Positions 43,587 through 56,146 of a stretch of DNA of 64,000 nt are shown here, in pieces. The notes beneath the pieces are model-generated. The model was given only the letters and a program-made list of their open reading frames with translations. It made no database searches and was not told the DNA's origin. Each line of letters opens with the position of its first letter. Within the stretch, counting starts at the first letter, position 1. The translations under genes and the position numbers were made by a program. This DNA comes from Micromonospora sp. C95 (GTDB lineage Bacteria > Actinomycetota > Actinomycetes > Mycobacteriales > Micromonosporaceae): assembly GCF_018070465.1 (NCBI RefSeq), contig NZ_JAGPXT010000017.1, positions 62,001 through 126,000 of the forward strand, written 5' to 3'.

Positions 43587-44914
43587 CCATCGTGCGAATC
43601 AGATCCCTGTCCGCCCTCGCGGTGAGCGCCCTGCTCGCCCTCGCCGGCTGTGGTTCCGGCGGCGGGTCCGCCCCCGGTGACCCGGTCAAGCTGCTGGTGT
43701 TCGGCGCTCCGGAGGAGTTGGGCGCGTACCGCACGCTCGCCGACGCGTACCAGCAGGCCCGGGCCGGTGAGCGGATCCAGCTGATCGAGGCCAGCGACCG
43801 CAAGGACCTGCTGGCCCGGCTCGCCACCTCGGTCGCCGGCGGCGCACCGCCGGACCTGTTCCTGATGAACTACCGCTTCTACGGACAGTTCGCCGCCAAG
43901 GGGGTGGTGGAGCCGCTCGACGAGCGGATCGCCGCCTCGTCGGTCCTCGACCCGGCCGACTACTACCCGGTCGCGATGGAGGCGTTCCGGTGGGACGGTG
44001 CCCAACTGTGCCTGCCGCAGAACGTCTCCAGCCTCGCCGTCTACTACAACCGCACGCTGTTCACCAAGTACGGGGTGGCCGAGCCGAAGTCCGGCTGGAC
44101 CTGGAACGACCTCGTCGCCACCGCCACCCTGATGACCCGCGACGACCGGGGGCTGGTGATCAAGGGCACCGAGGCCGAGGGGGCGGCGCGGCTGCCGGCG
44201 GTGCACGGCCTCGGCGTGGAACCGTCGATCATCCGGCTGGCCCCGCTGGTCTGGTCCAACGGCGGTGAGATCGTCGACGACCCCGACCGGCCGACCCGGC
44301 TCACCCTGGACAGCCCGGCCGCCCGGGAGGCGCTGCGAAACCTGATCGACCTGCGGCAGGCGTACGGGGTGGTGCCCAGCGACGCCGAGGTGGAGGCGGA
44401 GGACGACGAGTCTCGTTTCCTCAACGGCCGGCTCGCCATGCTGATGACCTCCCGCCGGGCCACCACCAACTTCCGCACCATCACCGGCTTCGAGTGGGAC
44501 GTCGCACCGCTGCCGGTCTACCGGCAGCCGGTCGGGGTGCTGCACTCCGACGCGTACTGCATGACCCGGGGGTCGCGGAACAAGGACGCCGCGTGGCGGT
44601 TCATGGAGTACGCGATGGGGGAGGAGGGACAACGGATCATCGCCGCGACCGGGCGTACCGTACCGTCGCACATGGGGGTGTCCCGCTCACCGGCGTTCCT
44701 GGACCCGGATCAGCCGCCCCGCAACTCGCAGGTCTTCCTCGACGCCATCCCGACCGTCCGGGCGCTGCCGACGGTCTCCACCTGGCCCGAGATCGAGGAC
44801 CTCAGCTACGGCATCCTGGAGAACGCCGTGCACCGTGGCGACAAGCTCGACGACGTGATCCGGGAACTGGACACCAAGAGCCGGCCGATGTTCGCCCGAG
44901 GGGAGAACGGGTGA
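43583..44914 (+). CDS. Lipoprotein sugar-binding protein of the ABC importer
   Basis: 443 residues. A lipobox signal (LSALAVSALLALAGCGSGGG) makes it a surface lipoprotein. The fold is of the extracellular solute-binding protein family 1 (PPDLFLMNYRFYGQFAAKGVVEPLDE, VYYNRTLFTKYGV, WNDLVATATLM, DAAWRFMEYAMGEEGQ). It delivers an oligosaccharide to the permeases. It overlaps both neighbours by 4 bases (ATGA before, GTGA after). Confidence 0.92.
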   Translation: MTIVRIRSLSALAVSALLALAGCGSGGGSAPGDPVKLLVFGAPEELGAYRTLADAYQQARAGERIQLIEASDRKDLLARLATSVAGGAPPDLFLMNYRFYGQFAAKGVVEPLDERIAASSVLDPADYYPVAMEAFRWDGAQLCLPQNVSSLAVYYNRTLFTKYGVAEPKSGWTWNDLVATATLMTRDDRGLVIKGTEAEGAARLPAVHGLGVEPSIIRLAPLVWSNGGEIVDDPDRPTRLTLDSPAAREALRNLIDLRQAYGVVPSDAEVEAEDDESRFLNGRLAMLMTSRRATTNFRTITGFEWDVAPLPVYRQPVGVLHSDAYCMTRGSRNKDAAWRFMEYAMGEEGQRIIAATGRTVPSHMGVSRSPAFLDPDQPPRNSQVFLDAIPTVRALPTVSTWPEIEDLSYGILENAVHRGDKLDDVIRELDTKSRPMFARGENG

Positions 44915-45948
44915 CCGACGGGCTCGTCCTCGACGGGGTCAGCGCCGCCTATCGCGACACCACCGTGCTGCACGAGGTGGATCTCACCGTCGCCCGGGGT
45001 GAGCTGCTGGTGGTGCTCGGCCCTTCCGGTGCCGGCAAGTCGACGGTGCTGCGGGTGGTCGCCGGCCTGGAACCGGTCACCGCGGGTCGGGTCCGCATCG
45101 CCGACCGCGACGTCACCGACGAACGGCCCGGTCGACGCAACGTGTCGATGGTTTTCCAGTCGTACGCCCTGTTCCCGCACCTGACCGTGGTCGAGAACAT
45201 CGCCTTCGGGCTGGAGGTCCGCGACACCCCGCGCCGGCTGGCTCGCGAACAGGCCCGGGCAGCCGCCGAGACGGTCGGTTGCGCCGGGCTGCTCGACCGC
45301 CGGCCCGGGCAGCTCTCCGGCGGGGAACGCCAGCGGGTCGCCCTGGCCCGGGCGCTGGTCCGCGAACCGGACGTGTTTCTGCTCGACGAGCCGTTGTCCA
45401 ACCTGGACCTGGCGTTGCGCGCCGAGATGCGGGCCGAGTTGCGGGCCCTGCACGAGCGGATCGGGGCGACGATGGTGCACGTCACCCACGACCAGACCGA
45501 GGCGCTGGTGCTCGCCGACCGGATCGCGGTGCTGCGGGACGGGCAGGTCGAGCAGGTGGGCACCCCGGACGAGATTTGGCGCACCCCGGCGAGCAGTTTC
45601 GTGGCCCGGTTCGTCGGCTCACCGGCGATGAACCTGCTGCCGGCCGACGGCCCGCTGCGACCACGAGGCGACGCGCCCACGCTGAAGGACGAGGAACTGC
45701 TGGAGATCGGGTTCCGACCCGAGGCCGTCGCGCTCGACTCGACCGAGGGCACCCCGGCCACCGTCGAGCGGGTCGAGGTGATCGGCGAGGACGCCTTCGC
45801 GTACCTCCGCCTCGCCGCCGGACAACAGGTGGTCGCCCGGGTGCCGGCGGCCCGCCGGCCCGACCGGGGCGCGACGGTACGCCTCGACGTGCGGTGGGCC
45901 GACACGCACCTGTTCCACGCCGCCACCGGCCGCCGGTACCAGCCGTGA
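44911..45948 (+). CDS. Sugar ABC transporter ATP-binding protein (MalK/UgpC type)
   Basis: 345 residues, with all motifs intact: Walker A GPSGAGKST, Q-loop VFQSYALFPH, signature LSGGERQRVALARAL, Walker B VFLLDEPLSNLD and the H-loop HVTHDQTEA. A C-terminal TOBE-like regulatory domain follows (EIGFRPEAVAL, EVIGEDAFAYLRL). MsiK-type ATPases in actinomycetes can serve several importers, but this one is in its own operon. Compare the catalytically dead ATPase at 55392. Confidence 0.93.
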   Translation: MTDGLVLDGVSAAYRDTTVLHEVDLTVARGELLVVLGPSGAGKSTVLRVVAGLEPVTAGRVRIADRDVTDERPGRRNVSMVFQSYALFPHLTVVENIAFGLEVRDTPRRLAREQARAAAETVGCAGLLDRRPGQLSGGERQRVALARALVREPDVFLLDEPLSNLDLALRAEMRAELRALHERIGATMVHVTHDQTEALVLADRIAVLRDGQVEQVGTPDEIWRTPASSFVARFVGSPAMNLLPADGPLRPRGDAPTLKDEELLEIGFRPEAVALDSTEGTPATVERVEVIGEDAFAYLRLAAGQQVVARVPAARRPDRGATVRLDVRWADTHLFHAATGRRYQP

Positions 45949-49973: not shown

Positions 49974-52358
49974 TCATCCCGGGCGAGGCTCGGCGGAGCG
50001 CTCACCGCCCAGGCGGGCGTCGGCGGCCTGCTGACCCTCCTCGTCGCCGGCCACCGCGCAGATGTCCGCCGCGTCCGCCCAGCGCCCACGGGCCTCCTCG
50101 TCGTCACCGAGCGCCGCCGCCGCGTCGCCCAGATGCAACAGCGTCCGGCCCAGCCCGGCGTCCGGGCGGCCACCCTCGCGCAACCGCCAGCTCTCGGCCA
50201 GCAGCTCGTACGCCTGGCGGGCCTGCCCCGGTGCCACGCCGAGCAGTGCCACGCCCGCGTTGAGCAGCGCCACCGCCCGGTTGGTCGGATCGCCGAGCGA
50301 CTCGTACTCCCGCAGCGCGGCCCGCCACGCCTGTGCCGCGTCGAGGTGCTCGCCCATCGCCGAGTGGACCAGCACCAGATTCGTCAACGCCGCCGCGTAG
50401 CCACGTGCGTCGCCGAGCGAACGGAACGAGTTCGCCGCCCGTACCAGCAGGTCGTGCGCGGTTTCCAGCTCGTATCGCGCCAGCCTCGCCGCGCCCAGCC
50501 CGAGGTCGCTGAGCGCCTGACCGGCGCGATCGGCGCTGGCCCGGTGCCGTCGCGACAACTCCAGATGCTCCACCGCCTCGTCGGTGCGCCCGAGGTCGAG
50601 CAGAGCCAGTCCGAGATTCATCCGCGCCTGGGCGGTACCCCGGCGGCCCTGCCCGGCCACCGCCAGACTGAGCGCGGCCACCGCACCGTACGGGTCGTGC
50701 CGGCGGCGACGCAGCACACCCAGCTCGTTGTGGGCCCAACCGGCGATCTCCGGCCGGTCCTGGGCGGTGGGATTGGCCAGCACCGTCCGGCAGACGTCCT
50801 CCCACTCGTCGAGCCGTTCGGTGTGGGCGAGCCAGCCGCACAGTGCCACGGCCAGCCGGAACCACCAGTCCCGTACCCGGCGCGGCAGCGTCTCCACCGC
50901 GCCGGCCGGCACCTTCACCACGGCCAGCAGCAACTCCTGGTGCAGGTCCAACCAGCCGTACGGATCATCGTCGGACAGGCGCTTGTCACGGTCCAGCGCA
51001 CCGGCCGCCAGCGCGGCCACCTGCTGTTCGGCCCGGCGGGCCAGGTGCCGGGTCAGCCGCGCCTGCACGGTGACCCGCCGGTGCACCGGCTCGGCGTCCC
51101 GCAGGTGCATCCTGGCGTAACCGGCGAGCAGCGGACGAACCTCGTACCGGTCGCCGGGCGCGCCGACGACGAAGGCACCGTCGGCCAGTTCGTCGAGCAG
51201 GGTGGCGACCCGGTGCGGCCGTCGTCCGGCGAGCGCGGCGATGGTCGCCCGGTCCAGCGGCACCCGGCTCAGCGACAGCAACCGCCACAGCCGCCGAGCC
51301 TCGCCGCCGAGCGCGTGGTATGCGGTGTCGCGGGCGGTGACCAGCCCGGTCACCGGTGACCCGCCCACCCGCTGGTGCGGAGGTGTGTCGGCGGCGCGGT
51401 GCAGCGCGTGCAGCACGTCGGCAGGCCGCCAGCCGTGCTGCGCGCTGCGCCGGCCAAGCTCCGTCACCGCGCGCGGCTGCCGTCCGCACAGCTCGACGAC
51501 GGCCCGTACCGCCGGGTCGGAGCGCGGGTCCGGGCGGTGTGGGCGGGCCACCGCGGTGGCCGCCCCGGCGTCGGCGAACATCTCCACCGCATCGTCGACC
51601 TCCGGCTCGGCCAGCCAGTAAGCCACCACCCCGTCGAGCGCGGCGAGCCGGCCGGTGCCGGCCAGCAGCAACCGGCAGTCCCGCGCGGTGGGCGGCAGCA
51701 ACGGCCGGACCTGCGCCGGTGCGTCCACGTTGTCGAGCACCAGCAGCACCTTGCGGCCGTCCAACTGGCCGCGCAGTTCGTCTGCGGCGTCGGCGAGGTC
51801 GTCCGGTCGGCCGGACCGGGGCGCCCGCGTGCCGACGATGCGGGCCAGCGCGGCCAGCACCTCCCGAGGAGAGTGGGCCCGGCCGTCCCGGCGTACGTCG
51901 AGGTAGTACTGCCCGTCGGGGAAGTCCGCGCGGCTCAGGTTCGCCGCCTGGATCGCGCACCAGGACGTACCGACGGCGCGCCGGCCCACCACCGCCACCG
52001 CGTGTTCCGGGGCGAGCATGGCCACCACCGCCTCCGCCTGGCCCCGCCGACCGGAGTACCCGGCCGGCCAGGGCAGCGTCGGTGCACCGCTGCTCGCCCG
52101 GGCCTCGGTCTCCTCGCCGGCAAGCAGCTGTTCGCGTTGCCGCCGCCGCCACTCCACCAGGAAGGAAGCGGCCAGCCCGAGCACCGCCAGCCCCAGGCTC
52201 GCCGAGCCGAGAACGGTGAGGGACAGGTCGGAGATCAGGTTGCCGGTGACGTTGCCGAGCACGGCGCTGACGCCGGCGCCGACAACCCCGCCGGCGGCCA
52301 GCAGCACGCTCAACAGCCGTGACCGTTGGCCGGGCCGCCGTGGTGGCGGCCCGGTCAT
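49974..52358 (-). CDS. Membrane-anchored NB-ARC-like/TPR protein with degenerate P-loop
   Basis: 794 residues. Two N-terminal helices at about 15-35 and 47-69 form a membrane hairpin. The NB-ARC-like domain begins near 100. Its P-loop reads VGRRAVGTSW (about 124-133), where the catalytic Lys and the GxGKT geometry are lost; Walker B KVLLVLDNVD (203-212) is kept. A winged-helix-like segment follows (LSLSRVPLDRATIAALAGRRPHRVATLLDELAD), then about five TPR repeats from 560 (IAGWAHNELGVLRRRRHD, AQARMNLGLALLDLGRTDEAVEHL and so on). It is the last gene of the operon with a defective ABC ATPase, coupled by a 4-base overlap. It probably acts as a scaffold or sensor. Confidence 0.8.
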   Translation of the reverse strand: MTGPPPRRPGQRSRLLSVLLAAGGVVGAGVSAVLGNVTGNLISDLSLTVLGSASLGLAVLGLAASFLVEWRRRQREQLLAGEETEARASSGAPTLPWPAGYSGRRGQAEAVVAMLAPEHAVAVVGRRAVGTSWCAIQAANLSRADFPDGQYYLDVRRDGRAHSPREVLAALARIVGTRAPRSGRPDDLADAADELRGQLDGRKVLLVLDNVDAPAQVRPLLPPTARDCRLLLAGTGRLAALDGVVAYWLAEPEVDDAVEMFADAGAATAVARPHRPDPRSDPAVRAVVELCGRQPRAVTELGRRSAQHGWRPADVLHALHRAADTPPHQRVGGSPVTGLVTARDTAYHALGGEARRLWRLLSLSRVPLDRATIAALAGRRPHRVATLLDELADGAFVVGAPGDRYEVRPLLAGYARMHLRDAEPVHRRVTVQARLTRHLARRAEQQVAALAAGALDRDKRLSDDDPYGWLDLHQELLLAVVKVPAGAVETLPRRVRDWWFRLAVALCGWLAHTERLDEWEDVCRTVLANPTAQDRPEIAGWAHNELGVLRRRRHDPYGAVAALSLAVAGQGRRGTAQARMNLGLALLDLGRTDEAVEHLELSRRHRASADRAGQALSDLGLGAARLARYELETAHDLLVRAANSFRSLGDARGYAAALTNLVLVHSAMGEHLDAAQAWRAALREYESLGDPTNRAVALLNAGVALLGVAPGQARQAYELLAESWRLREGGRPDAGLGRTLLHLGDAAAALGDDEEARGRWADAADICAVAGDEEGQQAADARLGGERSAEPRPG

Positions 52359-54118
52359 CGCACACCCCCGGCGACGAGTCCGGCGACCACCTGCCGGCGG
52401 GCCAGCACGAACACCAGCACCGGCAGAATCGAGGCGAGCACGCAACCGGCGGCGAGGGTGCCGCTGCCGGCCACGAAGCCACGGGTCTGCCCGGCGAGGA
52501 ACAACCCGAGCGGCGCAGCGTCCGGCCCGCTGAACAGCAGACCCACCACCAGGTCGTTCCACACCTGCACGAACTCCAGGACCGCCACCGCCACCAGCGC
52601 GGTGCGGTTGTGCCGGGCCAGCCGGCGCAACGTGCCCCACCAGTGCCGCCCGCCGATCCGCGCGCCACGGACCTGGTCGGCGGGCAGATCGGCGAAGGCG
52701 TTGCGCAGCACCAGCACGGCGAACGGAACACCCAGGGCGATGTGCACCAGGGCCACCCCCCGGGCCGTGCCGGAGGACAGCGCCAGCCCGAGCACCTCGT
52801 TGAGCGGGCCGGCGATCACCTGCACCGGGACCACCACCGCGGCCATCAGCACCAGGCCGGTGATCTGGGCGGCCGGCCCGGTAAGCCAGGCCAGCGGGTA
52901 CGCGGCCAGCAGCGCGACGCCCAGCACCGCAGCGGTGACGACGACGGCGAGCACCAACGTGAAACCGAGACTGCGCCACAGCTCCGCGCCGCTGAGCACC
53001 GCCCGGTAGGAGTCCAGACCCGGCGGGCCGGACCACCAGCCGTCGGTCGCCGCCCGCACCGGATTCTGCAACGACGTGGCGGCCAACACCCCCAGCGGCA
53101 GCAGCCAGGCGATCGCCGCACCCCCGGCGAGCAGCCGGACCACCCGGCGCGGTGGCGGCGCGGTCACGGCGCCGCCCGCCGGCTGCTGCGGCGGCGGCCA
53201 CGCCTGCCGGACGAACAGAGCCACCACCAGCATGCCGGCGGTCACCGCGACCAGCCAGACGACGCCCAGGGCGGCGCCCTCGCCGGAGGTCGTCGCACCC
53301 GAGGTCTGCCAGATCCGCAGCGAGAGCACCGCCGCCTCGTCCCGCACCGAACCCGGCGTCATCACCAGGATCAGGTCGAAGGTGCGGCTGGTGCCGACGG
53401 CGACCAGGGCGAAGACCACCGCGACGGTGCGCAGCAGCAGCGGTCGCCACTGCGCGTCCCAGAGCACGTCACGGCGGCTGCCACCGAAGGCCCGGACCGC
53501 GTCGGCGAGCCCGGTCGGCACCGCGTCGAGAGCGGCCCGGAACACCAGCATCGCCAGCCCGACCCAGGCCCACACGAACGCCGACATCACCGCCACGGTG
53601 ACCAGGTCCGGCCCGAGCAGCTGGGGCAGTTGCTCCGGGTCTCGTCCGGTCACCCTGGCCAACAGCAGGGTGGCCAGCCCGCGCTCCGGGTCCGGGTCGT
53701 AGAGCAACCGGAAGGTCACACCGGTGACCACCAGCGGCAGCGCGGTCGGCACCACCAGGATGAGCCGGACCAGCCAGCCCTCCTGGGATCGCCGGGATGC
53801 GGCGGCGAGCAGGTAACCCAGGACCGTGACCACCGTCGGTACCAGCAGCGCCCACAGCAGGGTGCGTCCGATCACCGCGGCGGTGCCGGGAGCGGCGAGG
53901 GCGGCCCGATAGTGTTCGGCTCCCACCCAGCGGCCGTCGGTGGTGACGCTGGCGTGCACGGTACGCAGCACCGGCCAGGCCAGCAGGCCGCCGAGCAGGA
54001 GCACCGCCGGTGCCAGCAGCGACCAGCCGACGCCGGCCGCCGGGTAGGCCCGGCCGCGTCGGGGCGGCCCGACGTCGTCGAGCACCGCCAGCTCGCCCAG
54101 CAGCGGGCCCCGGCTCAC
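52355..54118 (-). CDS. Single-chain fused ABC permease (MalF-MalG)
   Basis: 587 residues from the GTG at 54118 (GTGA overlap with the binding-protein stop). Two complete permease domains are fused: the first at about 30-290 with EAA loop LADAVRAFGGSRRDVLWDAQWRPLLL, and the second at about 320-585 with PADQVRGARIGGRHWWGTLRRLARH. A Pro-rich joint (PPPQQPAGGAVTAPPPRR) separates them. Normally these are two proteins. Sequence is compatible with a sugar importer, but the operon lacks a working ATPase. Confidence 0.85.
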   Translation of the reverse strand: MSRGPLLGELAVLDDVGPPRRGRAYPAAGVGWSLLAPAVLLLGGLLAWPVLRTVHASVTTDGRWVGAEHYRAALAAPGTAAVIGRTLLWALLVPTVVTVLGYLLAAASRRSQEGWLVRLILVVPTALPLVVTGVTFRLLYDPDPERGLATLLLARVTGRDPEQLPQLLGPDLVTVAVMSAFVWAWVGLAMLVFRAALDAVPTGLADAVRAFGGSRRDVLWDAQWRPLLLRTVAVVFALVAVGTSRTFDLILVMTPGSVRDEAAVLSLRIWQTSGATTSGEGAALGVVWLVAVTAGMLVVALFVRQAWPPPQQPAGGAVTAPPPRRVVRLLAGGAAIAWLLPLGVLAATSLQNPVRAATDGWWSGPPGLDSYRAVLSGAELWRSLGFTLVLAVVVTAAVLGVALLAAYPLAWLTGPAAQITGLVLMAAVVVPVQVIAGPLNEVLGLALSSGTARGVALVHIALGVPFAVLVLRNAFADLPADQVRGARIGGRHWWGTLRRLARHNRTALVAVAVLEFVQVWNDLVVGLLFSGPDAAPLGLFLAGQTRGFVAGSGTLAAGCVLASILPVLVFVLARRQVVAGLVAGGVR

Positions 54119-55395
54119 CGGCCGCGCTCCGCCGCGGCCCGGGCCGCCTCCGTGAGCTGTCCGGTGGCCCGGCGGACCGCCTCCCGGGCCGGCACCCCGT
54201 CGGTCACGTTCATGAAGAAGTCCTGCATGATCCGCCAGATCCCCACCCCGTCGGTGCCGGTGAAGGTGCCGGGCAGCTGATCGGAGAGGTCGAACTGCAC
54301 GGTGTCGGCGGCGCGTAGCTCGCCGGCGAGGCGTCGGCGCAACGGGTCGCGGTAGCTGGCCACCGGTACGGCAAGGTTGGGGGAGAGGTAGCCTCCCGCG
54401 TCCAGCCACGGCAGGAACGCCACCGCGTCGCTGAGCCAGCGCACCAGCTCCGCACCGCCGTCGGAGCCGGCGAACGCCACTGCCGCGTCACCGCCGACGA
54501 TCAGCGGCTGGTCGGCCACCCGGGCACCGGGGAAGCGGAAGGTGGCCAGCGGCTCGGTGCCCCGGCGGAACCGGGCGACCACCGCGTCGACGAAGTCGGC
54601 CTCGAACACCATGGTCGCCTCGCGGTGGTGCACCACCTGAATGATCGACTCCTCGAACTGGGTGAGCAGGGCCCGCGGCCCCCCGCCCGGGAACGCGCCG
54701 TCCACACTCCACAGTTCGGCGAGCCGCTCCAACGCGTACTGCACCGGCGGGCTCCGCCAGTCGGCCTCGCCTCGCGCCAACGCCCCGTACAGGTTCACGC
54801 CGGCGACGTCGGCGAGCACGTTCTCGAACCAGTCGGTGAGCACCCAACCATCGGCGGCGCCGATCGCCAGCGGGGCCGGGCCCGCACCCGCCAGATGTCG
54901 TTCGCCGAGCCGACGGGTCAACGTGACCAGCGCGTCCCAGGATCTCGGTGGTTCGGCCAGCATCGACGGGAAGTGCCAGAACAGCGACTTGTGCGCCGCC
55001 TTGACCCAGACGCCGTAACGACGCCCGCCGACGCTCAGCAGGTCGCTCATGCCGGTCGGGGCGGTGTAGCTGACCACCGGGGTCACCTCGCTGAGCCAGC
55101 CCCGCCGGGCGTACTCGATCACCAGCCCGGGGCGGGGCAGGATGGCCACGTCGGGACTGGTGCCGGCGGCGCGGCGCGCGGTCAGGAACGCGTCTATGTC
55201 GTTGCCCACGCCGACGACCTGCACGGTCGTCGGGTAGCCGGCGACCACCTCGCGGAACCTGGCCAGTTCGCCGCCGGCCCAGACGACCGCCACCTGCACC
55301 GATCGACGCCCCTGCCCGCAGCCCCCGGTCGCGGCGACCGTGGCCGCCGTCGCGGCACCCAGCAGCGTACGGCGACGCACTCCGATCCCGCTCAT
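54115..55395 (-). CDS. Lipoprotein solute-binding protein
   Basis: 426 residues. The N-terminus has a twin-Arg stretch (GVRRRTLLGAATAATVAATGGC) with lipobox Cys26. The body is that of an extracellular solute-binding protein family 1 (SPDVAILPRPGLVIEYARRGWLSEVTPV, SPNLAVPVASYRDPLRRRLAG). Compared with the protein at 43583 it is divergent. It overlaps its neighbours by 4 bases on each side. It probably binds a saccharide at the cell surface and touches the fused permease. Confidence 0.85.
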   Translation of the reverse strand: MSGIGVRRRTLLGAATAATVAATGGCGQGRRSVQVAVVWAGGELARFREVVAGYPTTVQVVGVGNDIDAFLTARRAAGTSPDVAILPRPGLVIEYARRGWLSEVTPVVSYTAPTGMSDLLSVGGRRYGVWVKAAHKSLFWHFPSMLAEPPRSWDALVTLTRRLGERHLAGAGPAPLAIGAADGWVLTDWFENVLADVAGVNLYGALARGEADWRSPPVQYALERLAELWSVDGAFPGGGPRALLTQFEESIIQVVHHREATMVFEADFVDAVVARFRRGTEPLATFRFPGARVADQPLIVGGDAAVAFAGSDGGAELVRWLSDAVAFLPWLDAGGYLSPNLAVPVASYRDPLRRRLAGELRAADTVQFDLSDQLPGTFTGTDGVGIWRIMQDFFMNVTDGVPAREAVRRATGQLTEAARAAAERGR

Positions 55396-56036
55396 GCCCG
55401 CACCGCCGACTGGGCCGGGCCGGGCGGGACGTCGTCGCCGACCGGTACCCGGACGGTCACGCCGGCCAGCCCCTCCTCGTCCGCGGAAAAGAGCAGCACC
55501 GTGACGCCTGGAGCGTCCGGTGGGGACGTACGGTCGAGCAGGTCCGGCAGACGCACCCCGTCGATCGGGGTCGGCAGGTCGACCACCAGCACCTCCGGTA
55601 GACAGGCCATGGCCCGAGCGAGCGCGACCCGGAACCGTTGCGCCTCGGACAGCAGGTGCGGGCGAAGTCCCAGGGTCGGGGCGAGTTCGAGCCGGTCGAC
55701 CAGGACCGCCGCCCAGCCCTCGGCGACGTCGCGCACCCACTGTCGACGGCGCTGACCATATGAGATGTTGCGCCCGACCGTGAGGTGGGGCAGCAGGGCG
55801 CCACCGGCCGGCACATATCCGATGCGGCGGCGCAACGGCGGCAGGTCGGTGACGTCGCGACCGCCGACCAGGATCCGACCGCTGACCGGCGCGGCCAGCC
55901 CGGCCACCACCCGCGCCACGGCGGTGGCCGGCCGGGGCGGGGCGACCACGGCAGCCGTCGCGCCGACGGCCACCTCGACGTCGAGCGGCGACATGTCCGG
56001 CACGGCAACCAGGTCGAGCATGCGTAACGTGACCAT
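55392..56036 (-). CDS. Catalytically degenerate ABC ATP-binding protein
   Basis: About 214 residues. The fold is clearly an importer ATPase (SGRILVGGRDVTDLPPLRRRIGYVP, LLPHLTVGRNISYG), but every motif is altered. Walker A reads APPRPATAV (no GKS/T, residues 32-40). The Q-loop Gln is Ala (YVPAGG). The signature is LSEAQRFRVALARAM. Walker B is VLVVDLPTP with the catalytic Glu replaced by Leu. The H-loop His is missing (LLFSADEEG). The frame is intact and coupled to the next gene, so this is a maintained non-catalytic protein rather than decay. The ATG at 56036 and GTG at 56039 are both possible starts; GGAGG sits unusually close. Confidence 0.8.
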   Translation of the reverse strand: MVTLRMLDLVAVPDMSPLDVEVAVGATAAVVAPPRPATAVARVVAGLAAPVSGRILVGGRDVTDLPPLRRRIGYVPAGGALLPHLTVGRNISYGQRRRQWVRDVAEGWAAVLVDRLELAPTLGLRPHLLSEAQRFRVALARAMACLPEVLVVDLPTPIDGVRLPDLLDRTSPPDAPGVTVLLFSADEEGLAGVTVRVPVGDDVPPGPAQSAVRA

Positions 56037-56146
56037 CACCTCCGGCGACCCTCGTCCTCATCCCAGCCTGTCACAGGAAAACCACGGTCGGTGCTCGGCC
56101 CGCCGTCCATCGTGGCCCCTGGACACCGCCGGTTACCCTGCCGCCC

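Follow-up and report, generated by a model that had tools for sequence, protein, structure and literature searches.

Four consecutive genes on the minus strand of a 64-kb window from Micromonospora sp. C95 (the whole stretch analyzed, 64,000 nucleotides of contig NZ_JAGPXT010000017.1) encode an ATP-binding cassette (ABC) ATPase, a lipoprotein solute-binding protein (SBP), a fused permease, and a tetratricopeptide repeat (TPR) protein. We propose, at a probability of about 0.6, that this operon specifies a membrane receptor, conserved and independent of ATP, that derives from a CUT1-type sugar importer and signals rather than transports. The four genes form a unit in which the catalytic residues of both nucleoside triphosphatases (NTPases) have been lost in every relative examined, and the two NTPase folds appear to be retained, according to one structural model each. 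Moreover, the EAA coupling loops of the permease have decayed, a motif of the SBP has been kept, purifying selection was detected, and Nocardia-type loci gave no ABC match. Judged by its sequence, the operon would not encode a functional importer: an SBP_bac_1 lipoprotein and BPD_transp_1 permease halves, as in CUT1 importers, are present, and two defining features, the ATPase motifs and the EAA loops, are lacking.

The first gene (55392-56036) encodes a pseudo-ABC ATPase of 214 residues (P0001), assigned from its frame, Pfam, alignment, and an AlphaFold2 (AF2) model. It is followed by the genes for the SBP (P0002, 426 residues with a twin-arginine start; 54115-55395) and for the two-half permease (P0003, 587 residues, GTG start; 52355-54118), both assigned from frame, Pfam, and alignment. 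The last gene (49974-52358) encodes a pseudo-STAND (NB-ARC-like)/TPR protein of 794 residues (P0004), putatively membrane-anchored, for which frame, profile, and an AF2 model were used. Pfam matches were ABC_tran (3.6e-13), SBP_bac_1 (3.2e-7), BPD_transp_1 in two stretches (1.6e-8), and TPR_12 (1.1e-7). Neighboring genes overlap by 4 bases at 55392-55395, 54115-54118, and 52355-52358. An earlier sequence-only reading of this DNA had described four genes coupled by three such overlaps, an ATPase that had lost its Walker A, Q-loop, signature, Walker B, and H-loop residues while keeping an open frame, a permease with both halves in one chain, and a last protein with a membrane hairpin, a degenerate Walker A, and TPRs. 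All of these were borne out, by the window sequence, by alignment, and by the two BPD_transp_1 stretches; the hairpin stands as a prediction from hydrophobicity judged by eye and from the model.

The losses in P0001 were read in an alignment with an intact, canonical sugar-importer ABC ATPase encoded in the same window (44911-45948), which served as a control. P0001 has APPRPA at Walker A (the former Walker A loop, APPRPATAVA, lies at 55914-55943), VPAGG at the Q-loop, LSEAQ for LSGGQ, LVVDLP at Walker B, and FSADE at the H-loop. The Walker A Lys, the Q-loop Gln, the first signature Gly, the Walker B Glu, and the H-loop His were each kept in 0 of 73 relatives; all five catalytic residues were present in 4 of 4 canonical control ABC proteins. 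The Walker B Asp column held Asp in 48 and Glu in 25 of the 73 proteins. Twelve columns were invariant in 33 aligned ABC proteins (the Actinocatenispora protein, L149, was left out), and five of these fall in residues 75-90, in the Q-loop/coupling groove (V75, P76, L81, P83, and N90). The segment GYVPAGGALLP of this groove (55788-55820) contains four of the twelve. A138, A140, and R141, after the signature, were also invariant in these 33 proteins. AF2 models, one each for P0001 and P0004, were compared with the Protein Data Bank (PDB) only. The P0001 model has the fold of a nucleotide-binding domain (NBD), with a mean predicted local distance difference test score of 90.8 and best PDB matches of the CysA/MalK type. 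P0001 is short, missing the C-terminal part of canonical sugar-importer ATPases; the L149 pseudo-ABC protein, at 372 residues, has a C-terminal part that is missing in the others.

P0004 likewise appears to retain an NTPase fold with its catalytic residues lost. Its degenerate P-loop, VVGRRAVGTS (51963-51992), has Thr for Lys. The P-loop of the family is usually GxxGxGTS, and Lys occurred in 0 of the 67 rows that contain the domain (64 Thr, 1 Ser, 2 Ala); the other four of the 71 rows were one frameshifted gene and three Nocardia proteins missing that stretch. The His of the MHD motif was absent from 71 of 71 rows, most commonly replaced by Arg-Pro, with the distant rows aligned uncertainly. 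Against Pfam, P0004 itself gave no NB-ARC match, and AAA_22 at 0.0029 was below its cut-off. The name NB-ARC used in the sequence-only reading nevertheless holds: 7 of 34 aligned relatives matched NB-ARC at E 0.01 or better, the P0004-family profile matched AfsR at 3e-36, and the predicted fold of P0004 resembles CED-4 and the nucleotide-binding oligomerization domains (NODs) of plant resistosome/NLR proteins (Z about 21; root-mean-square deviation 4.5-5.0 over 307-341 residues). The HaaT model matched the P0004 family at 4.6e-37, but with 128 bits against a cut-off of 1125. The best Foldseek E-value for the P0004 model was to 6mfv, a STAND protein with a TPR sensor, at a low TM-score of 0.39. 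TPR_12 was found in 24 of the 34 relatives, and the TPR part of the model is nearest in fold to LGN (Z 21.4 over 215 residues). On this evidence P0004 is a STAND protein in fold (a NOD plus a helical-repeat sensor) and not a strict STAND ATPase, as the Walker A Lys is missing. A predicted N-terminal membrane hairpin (residues 11-80; 52119-52328) was placed by hydrophobicity judged by eye and by helices in the AF2 model at residues 11-36 and 52-80, modeled with low to middling confidence. No kinase domain was among the 23 Pfam families matched in the 34 relatives; DprA_WH, MarR_2, and HTH_Crp_2 each gave a weak match in one of them. At least two loci (L167 and L172) carry a separate NB-ARC gene with intact motifs in the same stretch. 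The protein at L167 (Nonomuraea), encoded in the upstream part of the locus, keeps GKT and HD and offers a natural control for the pseudo-STAND protein.

To sample related loci, genomes were scanned with two peptides of an SBP motif, yielding 113 confirmed places; because the best 80 of these were taken, the distribution given here is a lower bound. Counts of the ABC, permease, and TPR genes in the scanned loci are independent of the choice of SBP peptides; the presence of the SBP motif in loci L101 to L180 is partly by construction because both peptides were taken from it. Searched with profiles of all four proteins, 67 of the 80 loci showed ABC, SBP, permease, and TPR in the same order, two of them with a broken gene. 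The remaining 13 loci were cut by contig ends (five), were canonical importers (three), or came from Nocardia (five). The unit was present in Micromonosporaceae (Micromonospora, Verrucosispora, Rugosimonospora, Actinoplanes, Amorphoplanes, and Actinocatenispora) and in Thermomonosporaceae and Streptosporangiaceae (Actinoallomurus, Streptosporangium, Sphaerisporangium, Acrocarpospora, and Nonomuraea). With start codons chosen by a script that favored overlaps, a 4-base overlap joined the SBP stop and permease start at 63 of the 67 loci and the permease stop and TPR start at 60; the ABC stop and SBP start overlapped by 4 bases at 47 loci and by 11 bases at 16.

Within the genus, an ABC orthologue of at least 64% identity was found in 41 of 101 genomes, own genome included; in the other 60, the best ABC match was 5e-25 or weaker, the level of generic ABC proteins. 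Among 200 genomes of the family, the SBP had 32 matches of at least 45% identity, again including its own, in 13 genera. The ABC profile found nothing near its own gene in 396 genomes of the phylum (best other match 127 bits, versus 328), and the SBP profile gave matches in 49 of 296 genomes of the class. Sixteen SBP places picked from this class search comprised 14 sister importers, one Nocardia-type locus (L207), and one incomplete locus (L208). When the flanks of 23 divergent loci were compared all against all, every cluster spanning more than three loci lay on the operon (its genes or antisense frames); off the operon nothing was common to more than three loci, and no linked output gene emerged. 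A PADLOC scan for a link to defence returned one weak TPR match and nothing else. That the gene order and the motif losses recur across many genera argues for more than chance.

The permease carries the strongest argument against transport powered by another ATPase. In sister importers with two separate permeases, EAA coupling loops were present in both halves in 17 of 17 cases; all 34 halves had an EAA-type loop with a DG core, reading EAA in 33 and DAA in one. Seven of these 17 importers have a codirectional, intact ABC gene and ten have none in the fetched stretch. In the fused permeases, the loops were degenerate in both halves in 22 of 22 aligned proteins, and none of the 76 fused permeases from the scanned loci, some truncated at contig ends, contained the pattern [ED]AAxxDG. 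In P0003 the half 1 loop (53426-53509) is degenerate and the half 2 loop (52607-52687) strongly so. Across the fused permeases, half 2 has decayed more than half 1 and is partly deleted in Streptosporangiaceae; L150 is near-EAA in half 1, and L138 has DG in half 2. This unequal decay suggests that a single pseudo-ABC protein may rest on half 1 only. The permease also has a conserved N-tail (LLGE..VLDDVGPPRRGRAYP; 54041-54118), presumably on the cytosolic side, which reads LLGE..VLDDVGP.RRGRAYP in Micromonosporaceae and FLFEVAPHHD.RAP-like in Streptosporangiaceae and which is missing from six sister permeases compared alongside. LGN binds linear peptides; given that the TPR part of P0004 is closest to LGN, the N-tail is a candidate docking peptide that could bind there.

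The SBP ligand class was approached through sequence relationships. R8, R9, L12, and C26 were invariant in 20 aligned rows, and the twin-arginine stretch together with the invariant Cys marks the SBP as a putative twin-arginine translocation (Tat) lipoprotein. Its best matches among solved structures are annotated as binding proteins for chitin oligosaccharides, xylo-oligosaccharides, and other sugars. With a strict pattern, the motif G(A/G)ADGW(V/T)L(T/S)DWFEN or a close form, which presumably lines the cleft, was recognized in 10 of the 15 sister SBPs and 12 of the 15 fused-type SBPs inspected; five and three proteins, respectively, were missed, so that the pattern indicates sharing rather than universality. 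Because the motif is common to the sister importers, the ligand class has probably been retained from them.

Six Nocardia-type loci (L170, L174, L175, L179, L180, and L207) contain the SBP, a fused permease, and a related TPR protein. The ABC profile gave no match in them (on the operon strand in five, on both strands in L207), and the only GxxGxGK[ST] or LSGG[QEM] string in any frame lay on the opposite strand of L180, close to its end; a very divergent ABC protein could escape both tests. The loss of the EAA loops is greatest in the Nocardia-type permeases, where the half 1 loop is gone too. The TPR protein of L174 (597 residues) has a hydrophobic hairpin and no P-loop visible by eye. Directly upstream of the SBP gene in four of the six loci (L170, L174, L175, and L180) are two genes, which we take from their sequences to be NfeD-like and SPFH-like. 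In a quick, midpoint-rooted SBP tree of 51 chosen rows, in which the long rows L149 and L150 may join falsely, a fully supported branch sets the canonical importers apart, the Nocardia rows group together, and the three labels can be placed with the minimum number of changes. With a root on the canonical side, the tree would be consistent with the fused, ATP-dead form having arisen once and the ABC gene having been lost later.

Purifying selection acts on each of the four genes. Median omega values (Nei-Gojobori) over 45 pairs from ten close species, the window plus nine loci, were 0.41 for ABC, 0.36 for SBP, 0.28 for the permease, and 0.24 for TPR; the largest value for a single pair was 0.64, in ABC. 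The ABC gene is thus the least constrained, as might be expected for a part kept for its shape.

On the proposed receptor reading, the four proteins would form one complex. The lipoprotein SBP would bind an oligosaccharide-like ligand, probably a sugar, outside the cell, and the ligand-loaded SBP would shift the conformation of the fused permease. On the cytosolic side, the pseudo-ABC protein would serve as a structural adaptor and relay this change, and the N-tail of the permease may provide a further or alternative route to the TPR protein. P0004, presumably unable to cycle nucleotide, would then act on an output partner encoded elsewhere, either as its scaffold or as its switch, so that the complex would signal and not transport.

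Several observations weigh against this reading. The unit is patchy, being found in 41 of the 101 genus genomes, and some copies appear damaged, through decay or assembly error: the TPR gene of Verrucosispora sioxanthis (L102, also L061) is broken into eight frames, the SBP of Micromonospora tarensis (L165) into three, and the ABC gene of L084 is split over two. Catalytic positions are not uniformly blank, as the second signature Gly is kept in 4 of 73 ABC proteins, Asp stands at the Walker B Glu position in 21 of 73 (the pair ED instead of DE), and the MHD Asp column is Asp in 7 of 71 TPR-protein rows. In half 1 of the permease, remnants of the loop persist (of 74 full-length rows, 68 have a Gly and 69 a Pro), so that some contact with an NBD is possible. 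Functional mycobacterial importers, too, are variable at the first EAA residue (PMC8603345), and the argument therefore rests on loss of the whole loop. Finally, P0004 matched no kinase, DNA-binding, or other effector domain, and no conserved linked output gene was found.

The sequence-only reading had offered two possibilities, sensing of a saccharide through the lipoprotein with signaling via the TPR protein, or a borrowed ATPase such as that at 44911. The comparative evidence favors the former, which stays an inference, and speaks against the latter. A working importer that borrows an ATPase, either of the MsiK type or the 44911 protein, with the dead ABC protein as a regulatory or half-site subunit, is in our view doubtful. 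Shared ATPases are common in CUT1 importers (PMC8603345); within the stretch retrieved, 10 of the 17 sister loci lack a codirectional ABC gene beside the SBP, intact ABC ATPases of this broad kind are encoded in the own genome (in the window and on contig C1, one each), and half 1 of the permease retains its loop traces. However, the 22 fused permeases are degenerate in both halves, whereas the sister permeases are intact in 17 of 17 importers, including the ten without a codirectional ABC gene; no intact ATPase is a conserved neighbor across the 23 loci, and the six Nocardia-type loci, which gave no ABC match, show the greatest loop loss. We know of no precedent for an SBP-dependent, ATP-independent facilitator or channel, in which the ligand would run down its gradient through the permease and the other subunits would gate it. 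Such a facilitator would accord with the persistence of the SBP and fused permease in the Nocardia-type loci, but it leaves the linked NB-ARC/TPR protein of 67 loci unexplained, and we regard it as improbable.

The TPR protein is equally unaccounted for if the dead complex is a decoy that competes with a sister importer for its ligand or subunits, thereby adjusting uptake. The SBP motif shared with the sister importers would suit a decoy, but the only SBP match at E 1e-60 or better in the own genome was the SBP itself, and no close sister importer was seen; this explanation is likewise improbable. Local decay, that is, a pseudogene operon whose frames are open by chance, could claim the lost catalytic residues and the few strains with broken genes. 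Yet the same order and the same losses recur in 67 loci of three families, with omega medians of 0.24-0.41, and on these grounds a pseudogene operon was rejected as scarcely credible. The sequence-only reading had named as refuting either the absence of the gene order elsewhere or homologues with intact motifs at this place (local decay); the order proved to be widespread among actinomycetes, in 67 of 80 loci, and intact-motif homologues numbered 0 of 73.

Upstream of the operon (56037-56146), an alignment of 18 Micromonospora/Verrucosispora loci revealed the stretches TCCA-n-TGGA and GTGTGnCA..CTGGG-like, common to most of them; the region also contains GGAGG. Downstream of the TPR gene and on the same strand, a second ABC gene encoding about 213-257 residues was present in 16 of the 80 loci, all Micromonospora (for example from 13455 in L116 and from 13405 in L126, each followed by a rough gene call of 511 residues). 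Its product has Walker A GPNGSGKT and Walker B VLILDEP and no LSGG[QEM] string. It was set aside as a candidate for a borrowed ATPase because the remaining loci lack this gene.

Known systems resemble parts of the operon. The sister importers (for example those of Thermomonospora and Allosalinactinospora), whose SBPs are 33-39% identical to that of the operon, differ in having two separate permeases with EAA loops, an intact ABC gene or none codirectional, and no TPR gene match. In Escherichia coli, the STAND protein MalT is kept at the membrane by the MalK subunit of the idle maltose transporter MalFGK2 (PMC10427625). The operon likewise combines CUT1-class importer subunits with a STAND protein; unlike in MalFGK2-MalT, both NTPases lack catalytic residues, and the STAND-like protein is encoded in the operon and has its own predicted hairpin. 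P0004 also differs from MalT in having no match to a DNA-binding domain, its relatives giving single weak winged-helix matches. In a second system, the SBP GlnH has been proposed to act via GlnX on the TPR kinase PknG, and the cytosolic tails of GlnX were suggested by the authors to meet the TPR domain of PknG (PMC6069109). Shared with the operon are an operon-encoded lipoprotein SBP, a membrane protein with short cytosolic tails, and a TPR protein. In contrast, GlnX is predicted to have four-helix-bundle sensor domains and is no ABC permease, PknG is a kinase whereas P0004 has no kinase domain, and the sections of PMC6069109 consulted describe no ABC subunit. We think that the operon may work like a cross of MalFGK2-MalT and GlnH-GlnX-PknG, being a member of neither. 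P0004 further resembles AfsR and HaaT in its NB-ARC core and TPRs; in an alignment, AfsR has GKT, the Arg of the TAR motif, and the HD of MHD, and P0004 lacks all three. Where AfsR carries a SARP domain (PMC10936776), P0004 has its hairpin. No paper on the four-gene operon was found in the open-access literature; most subscription journals lay outside that search, which makes this weak evidence of absence.

ABC importers are regarded as machines driven by ATP, and STAND proteins as switches that depend on it. More tentatively, and at somewhat less than even odds, the operon may represent a widespread actinobacterial class of ATP-free receptors in which pseudo-ATPases of two superfamilies, ABC and STAND, relay a signal from an SBP to a TPR scaffold, with the Nocardia-type loci as an end point at which the ABC protein was discarded. 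The annotation of such genes as a sugar ABC transporter may mislead. If the proposed receptor reading is true, these loci would offer a testable actinobacterial parallel to MalK-MalT signaling and GlnH-GlnX-PknG sensing, and a natural test of which transporter components are able to pass on a signal when no ATP is used.

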